From Oscillospiraceae bacterium (GTDB lineage Bacteria > Bacillota > Clostridia > Oscillospirales > Ruminococcaceae): a stretch of DNA of 64,000 nucleotides. The position numbers and the translations under genes are program-made. Position 1 is the stretch's first letter. Each line of letters begins with the position of its first letter. The DNA lies in assembly GCA_021200565.1 (NCBI GenBank), contig JAJQGJ010000024.1, positions 1-64,000 on the forward strand. Reading direction: 5' to 3'. Below, piece after piece: positions 4,463 through 35,600 of this stretch. Under the pieces are notes generated by a model, which saw only the letters and a list, made by a program, of their open reading frames with translations, was not told the DNA's origin and searched no databases.

Positions 4463-4996
4463 TCAGAATTCATCAACCTCATACTCATACTCGCCACTCT
4501 CAAACTTGTGAAGATAAACCCTTCTTGCAATGATATAGGTGAGAATGCAGAGCGCAACCCAGAATACAGTTCCCAAAAGCGCATAAATTTCAAGCCTTTC
4601 GCTCACAAACGAGAGCCAGTAGCTGGTGAAATAGAGCTGAGTGATGGCGTCAACCGCACGCTCTTCCGTCAGATACCCTGCAACCACCGCAGGAATGTAA
4701 TAGACAATTCCGGTGACGAGCATAACGCAGGTGACAAAAAGAGGTCTGTAGCTTCTGTAAGCCGTGTGCCTCTTTGCGTCGTCCGCAAAAAGCATGATGA
4801 GCATGACTCCAGGAATAATGCAGGATATAAGGCTTAAAAGCTCAGTGTTGTTGTAGAGCTGAAGCCTCGGAATTATCGTCCCGACAACTCCTAAAACTGC
4901 AGTTCTTCCCATGATAATTCCGAAAACAGTTATCGCCCAGAACAGTCCGAACCGGCTGAGGCAGTATAATAAATCCTTGAGGGAATCTCTTTCCAT
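4463..4996 (-). CDS. Hypothetical four-helix membrane protein
   Basis: I do not recognise this 177-residue protein. It has four strongly hydrophobic segments (about 13-38, 50-70, 84-108 and 136-160) and a short acidic C-terminal tail ending EYEYEVDEF. No catalytic motif is visible. The start is well supported by AGGAGG seven bases before the ATG and by a promoter (5035-5063) just upstream. It is monocistronic, converging on folT with a shared terminator. The plus-strand 142-codon ORF over it is a shadow. Confidence 0.75.
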   Translation of the reverse strand: MERDSLKDLLYCLSRFGLFWAITVFGIIMGRTAVLGVVGTIIPRLQLYNNTELLSLISCIIPGVMLIMLFADDAKRHTAYRSYRPLFVTCVMLVTGIVYYIPAVVAGYLTEERAVDAITQLYFTSYWLSFVSERLEIYALLGTVFWVALCILTYIIARRVYLHKFESGEYEYEVDEF

Positions 4997-5063: not shown

Positions 5064-5079
5064 GTGTTTTAGACATGAC

Positions 5080-5120
5080 AAAAGCGTCCCACCGTCTGAT
5101 AAGTGGGACGCTTTTGTTGT
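5080..5120 (-). terminator. Terminator after the Cys-rich peptide gene
   Basis: AAAAGCGTCCCAC (5080-5092) pairs perfectly with GTGGGACGCTTTT (5103-5115). Its position suits ending the minus-strand micropeptide transcript before the next minus-strand promoter. Confidence 0.8.
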
Positions 5121-5146: not shown

Positions 5147-5281
5147 TCAGCATCCGCAGCTGTTGCAGCTATTGCAGCTGTCGCAGCTTGAGCATCCGCA
5201 GTTTCCATTGCATGCAAAGAGAATGATGAGGATGAGGATGATAATCCACCAGTAGCCACTGAAGCATGATGAGCAGTTCAT
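5147..5281 (-). CDS. 44-residue Cys-rich membrane micropeptide
   Basis: This gene is too short for the ORF track. The translation opens MNCSSCFSGYWW, continues with one hydrophobic helix (about 10-23, Ile/Leu-rich) and ends in a tail of eight Cys in 21 residues, including SCDSCNSCNSCGC. In all there are 10 Cys in 44 residues. AAAGGAG lies seven bases before the ATG, and a strong terminator follows the stop, so I believe it is expressed. A short hairpin (AAGCAAG/CTTGCTT, 5307-5323) lies in its leader. I do not recognise a family. The periodic Cys tail could bind metal or form disulfides at the membrane face, and small Cys-rich spore proteins are another possibility; both are inferences. Confidence 0.7.
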   Translation of the reverse strand: MNCSSCFSGYWWIIILILIILFACNGNCGCSSCDSCNSCNSCGC

Positions 5282-5410
5282 AATCTGTCTCCTTTAAGAA
5301 TTATTAAAGCAAGCGTCTTGCTTATAGTTCAGTTTATTCGGAAGCAAGAAATGTGTTACTGGTTACTGTTTATTGTCCCACCGGCATATCTTTAGAATGT
5401 CGGTTTTGTA

Positions 5411-5440
5411 TTCGCAGTGTAAGACCGTCTGCGCTGCGAA
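5411..5440 (+). other. Hairpin upstream of the Clp-like gene
   Basis: TTCGCAGTG (5411-5419) pairs with CGCTGCGAA (5432-5440), with one G-T pair. It lies about 80 bases before the Clp-like start in a 238-base intergenic stretch. No CIRCE or CtsR heat-shock operator was seen here. Confidence 0.35.
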
Positions 5441-5519
5441 TCGCCGACGGCAAATGAATATTCAAGAAAAAACTGTCAAAGCTTGAAATAGAATATCAGA
5501 GATAGTGAGGCAAATTACA

Positions 5520-7841
5520 GTGACCAATTTTGATAGAGCATACCCCTCATCCGACTTCACCGACGAGGCGCTTGCAGCGATAAGACAGGCGATGAACTCA
5601 GCGATGGATTCAGGACACACCTACGTCGGCACCGAGCATCTCATACTGGCTTTTTTGAAGGATGAGAATTCCGCCAGCGAAATCCTTTCAAGCTTCGGCG
5701 TCAGCTATCAGGCTGTCAGTAAAAAGATATGCGAGCTTGCAGGAAAGGGAACCAAGCGCACAAGCCTTGATGTCGATTCGTTCACCCCCGCCGCAAAACG
5801 CTGCCTGAAATTCGCAAGAAAAACAGCGTCTGATCACGCCAGACCGAAAGCCGGAACCGAGCATATCCTCTATGCTATTTTAGGTCAGCAGAATTCGACA
5901 GCCGGCTGTATCCTGAGCGAGCTCACCGGCAACTCCTCCCGTATATTTGCCGCAACAGCAGACCTCATCGAGCGTGACAGCCGTGTTCAGTCTTCGTTTC
6001 ACCCGGAGCGCAAAGCTCCGAATCTCGAAAAGTTCGGTTTCGATATGGTCAGGAAAGCGAGCCTCGGCGAGTTCGATCCGTGCGCAATGCGTGATGCCGA
6101 GATCGAAAGAATTATCGGAATCCTGCTTCGACGCCAGAAAAACAATCCATGTCTCGTCGGTGAAGCAGGAGTCGGAAAAACCGCAGTCGTCGAAGCCCTT
6201 GCCGGGAGAATTGCCGATGGAAACGTCCCCGAACAGCTCAGGAATGTGAGAATATATTCACTCAGCCTGACGCAGCTTTTGGCGGGAGCGAAATACCGTG
6301 GCGATTTCGAGGAACGCCTGAAATACTGCATAGATGAAGCGGCAACCATCGACGGCATCATCTTATTCATCGACGAGATTCATATGCTCATAGGAGCAGG
6401 AGCGGCGGAGGGAGCAATCGACGCCGCAAATATCTTAAAGCCTATGCTTGCCCGAGGCGAAATCCGTGTAATCGGAGCCACAACCTTTGACGAATACCGC
6501 AAAACTATAGAAAAGGACAAAGCGCTTGACAGGAGATTTTCGCTGGTTCACATAAACGAGCCTGATGAAGAAACAGCCATCACGATGCTCACTCGCCTCA
6601 AACCAAGCTACGAGTCACACCATGGCGTCAGAATAACCGATGAAGCGGTAAGAAAGGCAGTCGAGCTTTCAAGCCGCTGTATTCCCGACAGATATTTGCC
6701 GGATAAGGCTATCGACATTCTGGACGAAGCCTGTTCATCTGTCAAGCTTAGCAGCTTTGCAAGAAGGCAGAGCATGAGAAAATCTGATAATGCGCTTGCC
6801 GGAATAACCGCAGAGGGACTGACAGAGCGCTATCTGAGCGAACTAAGCAGCCGCATATCCGTCCCGACGGTAACCGGCTCAGATATAGCAAGGTGCATAG
6901 CTTTACAGACTTCTGTTCCTGATGAACGGGAGATCATCACCGGCATCTCCCATATCGAAAGCGTTCTGAGGACCCGTGTCATAGGTCAGGACGAAGCCAT
7001 TGCAGAGGTCATAAACGCTCTCAGGCGTTCCGGCTCCGGACTCCGTGACAGAAGCCGCCCGATAGCAACTCTGATGTTTTCAGGACCCACAGGAGTAGGA
7101 AAGACCTCGCTTGCAAAAGCTGTGTGCGAAGCGCTATTCGGAAGTGATGACAAGCTCATCCGTCTTGACATGTCCGAATTCTCCGAGAAATACTCGCTTT
7201 CCAGACTCATCGGTTCTCCTCCCGGCTATGTCGGAAGCGAAAACGGCGGCGAGCTCACTGAAAGAGTCCGGAAGTCTCCATGTAGCGTAGTTCTCTTCGA
7301 CGAGCTTGAAAAAGCTGACCGTGATGTCATCTCGATACTTCTTCAGATTTGCGACAACGGCAGCCTCACCGACTCCCAGGGCAGACACGTCTCGTTCAGA
7401 AATACAATAGTAATCATGACTACAAATGTCATGAGCACTAAGTCGACATCCTGCGGCTTCATCCCAAGCGAAGGTTCAGACCGCACCGCTCTTGCAAGAC
7501 AGTTCTCAAGCGAGCTGATAAACCGAATCGATGCCGTCTGCTGCTTCAACCGGCTTTCAACAGAATCCTGCAAAGAGCTGACAAGGCAGATGCTTTTACA
7601 GCTGTCGAAGCGTGCATCTTCAGCCGGTGTCCGCCTCAGCTATTCCGACGGCATAGAGGATTTTATTCTCTTAAAATCATACACCCAGGAATTCGGTGCA
7701 CGGGAGCTAAGGCGTGTCATCATGACTGAAATTGAAAACCCTCTTGCCTATGAACTCTCAATAGGCAGAAGAGGGGAGCTCATGTGTGAAATAAATAACG
7801 GCAAGGCTCTTTTCAGAAGAAGCCTCACCGTTTCTGCATAA
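5520..7841 (+). CDS. ClpA/ClpC-type AAA+ unfoldase
   Basis: This is a two-ring Hsp100 ATPase that unfolds substrates, usually for ClpP. In order it has a Clp N repeat domain (about 10-150), AAA-1 with GEAGVGKT (about 214) and [12 protein letters not shown]-2 with GPTGVGKT (about 522) and [10 protein letters not shown], and a C-terminal D2-small domain. Little lies between the two AAA modules, so the ClpC/ClpB middle coiled coil is missing and the layout is ClpA-like. A candidate ClpP-docking tripeptide CGF sits where ClpA and ClpC have IGF/LGF. The ORF track begins at GTG 5505, but GAGG at 5507-5510 stands properly before the second GTG at 5520, which I prefer. No clpP, clpS, ctsR or mcsAB is nearby. 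Confidence 0.88.
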
Positions 7842-9256: not shown

Positions 9257-9994
9257 TCAGACCCCGTAATCCGAGAAGATATATTCACATATGCCAGAGA
9301 AGAGTACGAATGCCACCTCGCTCTGGTATTCTTCAGTTTCCAGTTTATCCGCTTCCTCCTGATTCGAAAGGAAGCCGCACTCCGCCATGACAGCAGGGCA
9401 ATTTGCAAAATGCAGAAGATATATCTCGCTTCCGACAGGCTTCGTTTCCCGCTCGTTGTCCGGCTGAAGATACCTGACAAAGCTGCTTTGGAGAATCCCC
9501 GCCAGCTTTGCGCTCTCAGAGCTTTCCACAGTATAAAACATCTGCGCTCCCGAGTATTTCGAGTCGGTATAAGTATTCTGGTGGACAGAGATAAAAATCG
9601 CATTTTCGACAGAATTCACAATCGCCAGTCGGTTTTCCATGTCCGATTTTTTCTGGTTTCCAAGTCCCGTGATGCCGGGATCGTGGATGGAGGTGTCGGT
9701 TGAGCGTGTGACAATGGTGTCAAATCCAGCTGCTTCAAGCATCCCCTGAAGCCTCAGCATGATGCTGAGGTTGATGTCTTTTTCCTCAACACCGTTTATA
9801 CTGACGCACCCGCTGTCGATTCCGCCGTGACCGGCATCTAAGATGATAGTCGGATAGACACTTTCTGCTTCTGCATCTGCGGGGATAACCGCAATCGGCT
9901 CATCAGCCGTGCTTACAAATCCAAAAACCAGGAGAAAAGCGCAGAGCATCACGATAAGCGCACCAACCCGGTTAGTCCAAAGCTTCTTCAACAT
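9257..9994 (-). CDS. cwlD: N-acetylmuramoyl-L-alanine amidase, CwlD type
   Basis: Amidase_3 zinc enzymes cut the amide bond between muramic acid and the peptide stem. CwlD acts in spore cortex muramic-lactam formation. The protein has an N-terminal membrane anchor or signal helix (11-29), then LDAGHGG with zinc ligand His 56, a Glu in GVEEKD (about 70), SVHQN, and the catalytic Glu of MAECGFLSN near the C-terminus. At 245 residues it is a single-domain enzyme without cell-wall-binding repeats, as in CwlD. GGAGG precedes the ATG. An inverted repeat upstream (10021-10038) may be an operator. The sporulation role is inferred from the family and from spoIIR elsewhere in the window. Confidence 0.85.
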   Translation of the reverse strand: MLKKLWTNRVGALIVMLCAFLLVFGFVSTADEPIAVIPADAEAESVYPTIILDAGHGGIDSGCVSINGVEEKDINLSIMLRLQGMLEAAGFDTIVTRSTDTSIHDPGITGLGNQKKSDMENRLAIVNSVENAIFISVHQNTYTDSKYSGAQMFYTVESSESAKLAGILQSSFVRYLQPDNERETKPVGSEIYLLHFANCPAVMAECGFLSNQEEADKLETEEYQSEVAFVLFSGICEYIFSDYGV

Positions 9995-10020
9995 AAGAAA
10001 ACCTCCGAAATCTGTTTTTA

Positions 10021-32625: not shown

Positions 32626-35600
32626 GTGTATTTGAAATCTATTGAGCTTCACGGCTTCAAATCCTTTCCGGACAAGGTCAAGCTTGAGTTCGGAAAAGGC
32701 TTGACAGCTGTTGTAGGTCCCAACGGAAGCGGGAAAAGCAATATAGGCGACGCAGTCAGATGGGTTTTGGGAGAGCAGTCCTCCAAAACTCTTCGTGGCG
32801 GCAAGATGGAGGACGTAATTTTCGGAGGAACCGAAAAGCGTAGCCCCATGAGCTTTGCTTCCGTAACACTGAATATATCAAACGAAGACCGCACCCTCGA
32901 AATAGATTCCGATGAAGTCAGCGTAATGCGCCGCCTTTGGAGAAGCGGCGAAAGCGAGTACCTGATAAACGGAGCCCAGGTCAGACTCAGGGATGTTGTC
33001 GAGCTCTTCATGGACACAGGCTTGGGTCGTGACGGCTACTCCATAATCGGACAGGGCAAGGTCGCAGACATAGTGAGCTCTAAATCGGGTGATCGCCGGG
33101 AGATATTCGACGAAGCCGCAGGAATCTCAAAGTTCCGCTACAAAAAAGCCGAGTCCGAAAGACGCTTGGCATCTGCCGAAGAAAATATTCTGAGACTAAA
33201 AGATATACTCTCAGAGCTTGAGGGAAGAGTAGAGCCTTTAAGAATCCAGTCAGAAAAGGCAAAAAAGTATCTTAAGTTAGCCGACGAAAGAAAGCACCTC
33301 GAAATCTCCGTCTGGGCTGACAGATTGGAAGAGCTTAAGACCAGCGAAAGTGAAACCGGAAATCTTCTTCTCTCGTCCCAGGGCGAGTATGAGCACTTAA
33401 CCAATGAAATTTCCCGTTATGAAGCGGAAATAGAAGAGCTCGCCGCAAAGCGCAGGCAATCAGCAGCAGCGGCTGAGGAATACAGATCGAGAATAGCAGA
33501 GCTCAGCTCCCGCAGTGCTGAAGCGGCATCCGACATCGCTGTCTACAAAAACAACATCATGCACTATGAAAGCGAGATTTCGGAAGCCGAAAGAAAACGC
33601 CAGGAGCTTCTTGAGGCTGAAAAAGAGGTCGAAAAGAGCATCTCAGAAAAGCTTTCAGAATCTGAGCGAATCAGGTCTGAGCTATCCTCACTCAGCGAAG
33701 AGGTATCTTCACTCGAGCGGGAGCTCACCGGCTTGAACTTAGAGGAGAACGAGCATGAAAGCGACCTTGGCAGCTTCCGTGAAAAGCTCAATCGTGCATA
33801 TGTCGAACGCTCCGAGCTCAAGTTCGCAATAGCAAGTGCCTTAAGAGACAAAAGCGAAGCGGAAGCTGCAATCAAAGAAGCATCAGCCCAAATTGATACA
33901 CTTAAGTTGCAGATAACACGGACTGAAAATGATGAGCAGTCGGCGTTAGACGGCGTTTCCGACATCTTAAGACAGATTTCCGAGCATCAGAACCGTTTGA
34001 CCGGCTTCAATATGCTCTACCAGAAGAAAACCGAGCAGCAAAAGAAACTTTCGGCTGAATATAACGACGCAGAACTAAATAAGCGCTCTCTCGAATCCCG
34101 CCGTCAGATGCTCATCGACTTGGAGAACAGCATGGAGGGCTTTGCGGGAAGCGTCAAGAGCGTCATAAAAGCCGGCAAGTCAGGAAGGCTCCAGGGCGTC
34201 AGAGGCACAGTTTCCCAGCTCGTCTCAGCAGATTCAAAATACAGCCTCGCAATCGAAACTGCCTTGGGCGGTGCAATGCAGAATATTGTCGTCTCAAATG
34301 AAGAGTCCGCAAAAGCCTGCATCAGATTCCTGAAAGAAACCAACGGCGGCAGAGCGACATTTCTGCCGATAACCTCAGTCAAGGGCAACACTCTTAATGA
34401 GCGTGGTCTTGATATGGAAGAGGGCTTCGTTGCAATGGCTGACGAGCTGCTCGATTGCGACGAAGAGTATTCCGGAATAATCCGCTCACTCTTAGGCAGA
34501 ACAGCAGTCGCCGAGAATATCGACCTGGCATCAAACATTGCAAAAAAGCACGGTTACCGTTTCAGAATAGTCACTCTCGACGGTCAGGTCATCAATGCTG
34601 GCGGCTCCTTCACCGGGGGAAGCTCATCAAAGAATTCGGGCGTACTTTCGAGAAAGAACGAAATCTCGAAGCTTTCCGCCCAGTTAAATAAGCTTGAATC
34701 CGACCTTTCGAGGCTGAAAGAACGTCTTTCCTCTGTCAATGCCGAAGCCGAAAAGCTAGGCTTTGACTTAGACGGCGAAAAGGACATTATCTCTTCGATG
34801 GAAGCGGATAGAATAAGATTTGAATCAGAAGCCGAACGCTTGAGACTTTCCGCAGAACAGCTGAGAGCCCGTGTCTCAGATATTGAGAAATCTGCACTTG
34901 CAAGCAAGAACAGGATTTCCTCTTCAGAAGAATCCAAGGCTTCCTCAGAAATAAGACTTGCCGAGCTCGAAGCCGAAATTTCGGTGATTGAGGGCAGGAT
35001 AAGCGCAGCAGGCGAGGAAAGTGTAGCTTTAAGAAGCCGCCGTGAGGAGATTTCGAATGAGATTTCTAAGAAACGCCTCCATTCGACAGAGCTTGCAAAG
35101 GACATCGAGGCTGCAAATCAGTTTATAGAGCAGCTTAGAGCCGGCATCGAAAGCTCGCATGCATCTGCAGGTGAGTATCTTGCAAGAAAAGCCGAACTCG
35201 AACGTGAAATAGTCGCTGAGCAGGAGAATATCGCCGAGCGTGAGCATGAAGCTGAAGAATCCAAGCTTACAGCTGAAAGATACAATGAGCGCATCCGTCA
35301 GGAAACCGACAGCTCTCTTGAATATGAGCGTCAGGAAAATCTGACACGTGCTAAATCTAAAGAGACTTCATCTCTGAAAGAATCGGTCATGAGTGAAATT
35401 TCACGGCTTTCGGAAAGACTCGAAACCATCCGCCGTGACAGCTCAGATATAATCGGAAGCCTCTGGGAATCCTATTCGATGACCGCCGAAGAAGCGGCAG
35501 CCCAGGCTGAAAAGCTCACCGACGTTTCCGAAGCGACAAAGCGACTGACCGAAATCAAAAACAAAATCCGTGCACTCGGCTCTGTCAATACCGACGCAGT

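Follow-up and report, generated by a model that had tools for sequence, protein, structure and literature searches.

A conserved gene for a cysteine-rich, predicted membrane peptide divergent from clpC in Oscillospiraceae, with a putative role in the spore envelope

Introduction

Does a frame of 44 codons, ten of them for cysteine, encode a real protein at positions 5147..5281 of a 64,000-nucleotide stretch of an Oscillospiraceae genome (GCA_021200565.1, contig JAJQGJ010000024.1; hereafter the window), and if so, in which process would such a peptide take part? An earlier note, made from the letters of the window, had taken the frame for the gene of a small membrane peptide, pointing to its good ribosome site and strong terminator, and had suggested metal binding or disulfide chemistry at the membrane. 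Here the locus is compared with those of relatives from the genus to the class, and we propose that the peptide probably serves as a small structural element in the envelope of the spore.

Results

The frame was confirmed and assigned to the minus strand, the earlier note having named no strand, and runs from an ATG at 5281 to a stop codon at 5149-5147, and its translation, MNCSSCFSGYWWIIILILIILFACNGNCGCSSCDSCNSCNSCGC, comprises 44 residues including ten cysteines (~23%). The ribosome site is likewise as described earlier: a Shine-Dalgarno sequence, AAAGGAG, can be read directly at 5295-5289 (minus) and is kept in relatives. A protein match was obtained in 30 of the 31 genomes of the genus, and the remaining genome (G005) has a divergent copy, reading MNGSCFGGGCWWIIILILILLCCCNNGNSC..., which adjoins a divergent clpC and was located via its promoter, the protein search having failed to detect it. 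Across the genus the frames are open, none being broken, and they share the same start methionine and retain the Shine-Dalgarno sequence; the refuting condition set in the earlier note, a frame not conserved in relatives, is thereby ruled out. Among nine close relatives dN/dS was estimated at 0.088 over the 44 codons, with 0.055 for the N-terminal 27 codons and 0.145 for the tail, and within the helix core WWIIILILIILF (26 genomes) it was 0.025, with synonymous third positions varying freely. Judged from these comparisons, the minus-strand ORF 5281..5147 is a genuine gene, because it is present in all 31 genus genomes with its frame open and a dN/dS of 0.09, which upholds the earlier claim that a small membrane peptide is truly encoded here. 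An accidental ORF arising from low-complexity sequence, which the composition taken by itself would suggest, is refuted by the same figures and by the conserved Shine-Dalgarno sequence and promoter, and its probability is negligible.

At E ≤ 0.01 a narrow profile matched 43 of the 299 family genomes, and profile matches were also obtained in 150 of 394 genomes at the order level and in 86 of 391 at the class level; these counts are approximate in both directions because the matches are short and of low complexity. The common layout is a short head (Cys, Asn, Gly, Phe) followed by one hydrophobic helix, typically [YC]WWIIILILI in the relatives, and a Cys-Gly-Cys/Asn-rich tail, with CGC/CxxC-rich tails in nearly all relatives and two or three tandem copies of the peptide in some genomes. 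In the window peptide the hydrophobic stretch covers ~15 consecutive residues, and a single-sequence AlphaFold2 model places a helix at residues 11-27 at low overall confidence (pLDDT 54.9). The tail contains neither Lys nor Arg, which leaves it poor in trypsin sites. Relatives overall range from 40 to 66 aa with up to ~23% cysteine; within the genus the head and helix are nearly invariant, while total length (40-57 aa), cysteine number (7-12) and cysteine spacing vary. The periodic cysteine pattern remarked on earlier is therefore not a conserved property, as tail length, cysteine number and spacing differ even between close species. Since the helix is fixed while the cysteines of the tail vary in number and spacing, one defined metal site is unlikely and a site of fixed spacing was rejected; of the two chemistries first suggested, disulfide formation is retained as possible.

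Searches of Pfam and NCBIfam with the peptide and 33 relatives gave no family match, and hence none to described coat or exosporium families of the CdeC/CdeM/CotY type; the same searches gave no match to described small sporulation families (YjcZ-type), and PHROGs had no matching curated family. Sub-threshold matches to UPF0370, TatA and ODV-E18 (Pfam/NCBIfam/PHROGs) were set aside as chance matches of the hydrophobic helix. Literature searches found no described clostridial small Cys-rich membrane spore peptide.

A promoter block of the form GTAACACATTTT-N9-CATAnnnTGTAnTAT(A/G) precedes the peptide gene in the genus and was found exactly once per genome in 28 of the 31 genomes (≤3 mismatches), as against 0 for a reversed-pattern control, with clpC near every genus locus that matches it. 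Its counterpart in the window, GTAACACATTT-N10-AATAAACTGAACTATAA (5322..5359, minus), is a putative sigma-K-type promoter on the basis of the genus-wide pattern and the published consensus, with AC at 5356-5355 as the -35 element and, after 16 nt, the -10 box AATAAACT at 5338-5331 (minus). Clostridial sigma-K promoters have a -10 box like CATATTAT or CATATAAT, and their -35 AC distinguishes them from sigma-E promoters, which have ATA (PMC3789822); because both its -10 box and its -35 AC agree with this consensus, the block, as AC-N16-CATAnnnT, fits the late mother-cell sigma-K type. The window agrees with the sigma-K regulon pattern AC-N16/17-CATAnnnT apart from one base of the -10 box, a clade-specific change by which AATAAACT starts with A instead of C; most relatives have CATAAACT. 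The shortness of the core consensus weakens the assignment to sigma-K.

The association extends beyond the genus. Among 41 loci selected by protein alone, in which the window was the sole representative of its genus, GTAAC-N15-17-[CA]ATANNNT lay in the 200 nt upstream of 26, whereas local shuffles predict 0.1 and the reverse strand gave 0; the bare core AC-N15-17-CATANNNT was present in 29 (2.1 expected from local shuffles). In an order-wide scan of 388 genomes, off-target matches were few, ~6 above a noise level set by 2 matches of the reversed pattern; these non-peptide matches lay before a small membrane protein with SpoVM encoded next to it downstream (L201; NF033436, 40.4 bits, cutoff 31), before a protein with SpoIID/LytB and peptidoglycan-binding stretches in a SleC-like architecture (L222), before small membrane proteins resembling that of L201 (L203, L207) and before MurA (L209); sleC is sigma-K-dependent in C. 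difficile (PMC3789822). The small membrane proteins of L201 (G578:C16), L203 (G626:C17) and L207 (G555:C15) form a family of ~50 aa whose promoters resemble the one before the Cys peptide; one member lies immediately before spoVM. A similar promoter precedes a 274-aa protein with many cysteines (L202, G641:C13), possibly a coat protein, which has no NCBIfam match.

No strong sigma-70 promoter was found upstream of the peptide gene. An ECF-type reading (GTAAC plus a T tract) is less likely, the sigma-K reading being better on the -10 box and the AC spacing, and the off-target matches preceding sporulation genes. A vegetative reading with TACTAT as the -10 box was rejected, because it has no properly spaced -35 and transcription would begin within the conserved 5' stem. 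Sigma-K recognition by itself does not account for TGTAnTAT, which is conserved immediately downstream of the -10 box and may serve as a second site for binding.

With transcription predicted to start at about 5322-5323, the mRNA of the window would carry at its 5' end a stem-loop, AAGCAAG-ACG-CTTGCTT (5307..5323, minus), which by itself is unexceptional (z -1.4). In the family as a whole this stem-loop begins where the transcript is predicted to start, no more than ~2 bases from where the promoter block ends; the arms change together among relatives (AAGC/GCTT, GAAG/CTTC, AAGG/CCTT, AAAACG/CGTTTT, GAGC/GCTC) and the outer stem averages 5.8 bp over 59 leaders, compared with 4.1 in shuffles. 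The leaders of family f24 have no stem-loop. A protective role would be the likeliest for the 5' stem. At the other end of the gene, the strong terminator described earlier is a real, symmetrical hairpin (5078..5117; -27.3 kcal/mol, z -8.4), but it is bidirectional and by its sequence could serve both strands. The peptide gene forms a unit by itself, because a distinct sigma-70-like promoter, TTGACA-17-GATAAT, precedes the next gene on the minus strand (4996..4463). This neighbour encodes a 177-aa membrane protein, which is conserved after the peptide gene in a large part of the genus and has no Pfam or NCBIfam match.

Divergent from the peptide gene lies clpC (Clp_N, D1, D2; 5520..7841, plus), the probable start of which is a GTG at 5520, the ORF caller having placed it at 5505. 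Its product has S. aureus ClpC as best structure match (583 bits, versus 547 for ClpB and 478 for ClpA) and retains the GF ClpP-type loop, with a middle domain ~26 residues shorter than that of S. aureus ClpC; the next closest Clp of the genome resembles ClpE and carries a Cys zinc motif at its N-terminus. By tblastn, clpC is found within 1.5 kb of the peptide in all 30 genus loci, which with G005 makes 31 of 31 genomes, and in 24 of the 28 loci of a family-wide search, some of the 28 belonging to our own genus. Most sampled relatives from about ten other genera keep the pair, their outer flanks differing and little else being common, and the commonest neighbour in 51 loci with long flanks is a Clp ATPase of 750-812 aa divergent from the peptide. 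In other families the peptide sits beside ctsR-mcsA(-mcsB-clpC) or parts of it (L091/L146, L097/L149, L103, L108/L155, L204); at L146 it adjoins ctsR, mcsA, mcsB and clpC, McsA and McsB being confirmed and CtsR assigned by inspection. The window clpC stands alone, without adjacent ctsR, mcsA or mcsB, whereas in other families the complete operon lies by the same peptide. Many relatives at the level of the order and class keep the peptide without clpC beside it; the association, though ancient, therefore does not hold everywhere. In the region upstream of clpC (window 5400-5520), other members of the genus show a conserved block of their own, approximately CATAGAATT / CATACAATTTA, preceded by GTAAGCAAGCC.

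The genome itself encodes Spo0A, SpoIVA, SigE and SigG, the latter two clustered together, and also SigK, which matches NF004471 with 289.5 bits (cutoff 252) and TIGR02846 with 285, just under its cutoff of 298.65. The window also holds a match to the spore cortex gene cwlD at 9994..9257, scoring 192.6 bits, below the cutoff of 221.6. Among peptide-bearing genomes of the order, SpoIVA is present in ~144 of 148, versus 345 of 388 overall, a hand count confounded by completeness and phylogeny. On contig C17 of the genome (G000) an exact direct repeat of ~360 bp (~9654-10012 and 33982-34340; L229, L230) holds the 5' part of sigK, and the repeats flank ~24 kb with type I restriction-modification-like, tyrosine recombinase and other defence-like genes (by inspection). 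From its sequence, this segment resembles a mobile island with sigK as its integration site, leaving an intact copy at 34009-34692. A skin-like interruption, suggested by the two sigK hits, was rejected because one copy of sigK is intact.

The earlier reading thus holds for the gene, its ribosome site and its frame and fails for the cysteine spacing, and it had overlooked the link to clpC, the promoter of sigma-K type and the setting in sporulation.

Discussion

On balance we favour, with guarded confidence, the view that the gene is under sigma-K control and encodes a spore-envelope peptide that is anchored in a membrane and forms disulfides, because a late-sporulation-like promoter beside clpC is kept in gut Clostridia. 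The mother cell would make the 44-residue peptide late in sporulation from the sigma-K-type promoter, and its one helix, YWWIIILILIILF, would insert into a membrane that faces the mother cell, most probably the outer membrane of the forespore or one on which the coat assembles. The Cys/Gly/Asn/Ser tail would become exposed and, during spore maturation, may become linked by disulfides to itself or to further Cys-rich proteins of the coat or exosporium; such cross-linking in the spore envelope would suit a cysteine tail that is only loosely constrained.

Several known systems offer partial parallels. CdeC and CdeM of C. difficile, CotY/CotZ of B. subtilis and ExsY are Cys-rich proteins built into spore layers (PMC6101409), and they resemble the peptide in high cysteine content (10 of 44 residues in the window, with Cys-rich tails in the relatives also) and in Asn/Gly-rich stretches, CdeM having NGNNGGNNNNC repeats (PMC6101409). 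These proteins are spore-associated, whereas late sporulation expression of the peptide is a prediction; CdeM and CdeC are moreover 161-405 aa long with ~9% cysteine, in contrast to the 40-66 aa, up to ~23% cysteine and single N-terminal hydrophobic helix of the peptide family. SpoVM (26 aa) is likewise a tiny mother-cell peptide at a membrane, the mother cell being predicted for the Cys peptide, and a related promoter precedes the spoVM operon in another genome, but SpoVM is an amphipathic helix without cysteine and its sequence is unlike the Cys peptide. The eukaryotic CYSTM proteins, which are stress-linked (PMC10217909), are also small with one hydrophobic segment and a cysteine cluster; however, they are tail-anchored, whereas the Cys peptide has an N-terminal helix and a C-terminal Cys tail, and the CYSTM profile of Pfam gave no match at E up to 1-10.

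A purely structural role leaves the strong clpC linkage unexplained, and a function connected with ClpC, as the main rival to the spore-envelope reading or an addition to it, would account for that linkage. The peptide might be a membrane-anchored partner or regulator of ClpC, its Cys tail sensing thiol or metal stress or tethering ClpC(P) at the membrane, which we consider unlikely. Divergence from clpC throughout the genus and in most family-level loci while the remaining flanks are shuffled, the adjacency to ctsR-mcsA(-mcsB-clpC) in other families, and the ClpP-type loop and shortened middle domain of the window ClpC all speak for it, as does the precedent of McsA, a CxxC zinc protein that works with ClpC in other Firmicutes. 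McsA resembles the peptide as a small Cys-containing protein encoded at the clpC locus, but it is soluble with fixed CxxC zinc fingers, while the peptide has variable cysteine spacing and lacks the paired CxxC fingers at fixed spacing of McsA/ClpC adaptors; the two genes lie side by side at L146, so the peptide is not McsA. The absence of fixed CxxC pairs from the tail, the many genomes of the order and class that retain the peptide but have lost the linkage, and a promoter that is sporulation-like and not common to clpC argue against a partnership of this kind.

We regard as doubtful the proposal that the peptide binds metal at the membrane, storing or buffering zinc, copper or iron either in the mother cell or in cells growing vegetatively. 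The CGC/CxxC-rich tails of nearly all relatives and the cysteine content of the window peptide are what it would predict, but cysteine number and spacing differ strongly between close species, and none of the recurrent neighbours is a gene for metal transport or a metalloregulator. A combination of the sporulation and ClpC readings, in which a mother-cell membrane component works with divergent ClpC or ClpCP to remodel or degrade proteins of the forespore surface during coat formation, as a dedicated two-gene unit of gut Clostridia, can be drawn from the arrangement of the locus and is improbable in our estimation. That the product is a processed peptide, RiPP-like or a signal peptide, is highly improbable: small size, high cysteine content and tandem copies in some families would be in keeping with it, but no radical SAM, lanthionine or protease gene recurs nearby (by cluster and inspection), and the most conserved part is the helix, not a leader.

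If the spore-envelope reading is true, a family of tiny Cys-rich membrane peptides would join the sporulation programme of gut Clostridia, the spore envelopes of which are poorly known. The family occurs in about one-fifth to two-fifths of the sampled class and order genomes and is absent from Pfam and NCBIfam, and the conservation of its promoter, which sufficed to find the copy in G005 missed by the protein search, provides a practical handle for annotation. The fixed link to clpC raises the testable question of whether regulated proteolysis takes part in spore assembly.
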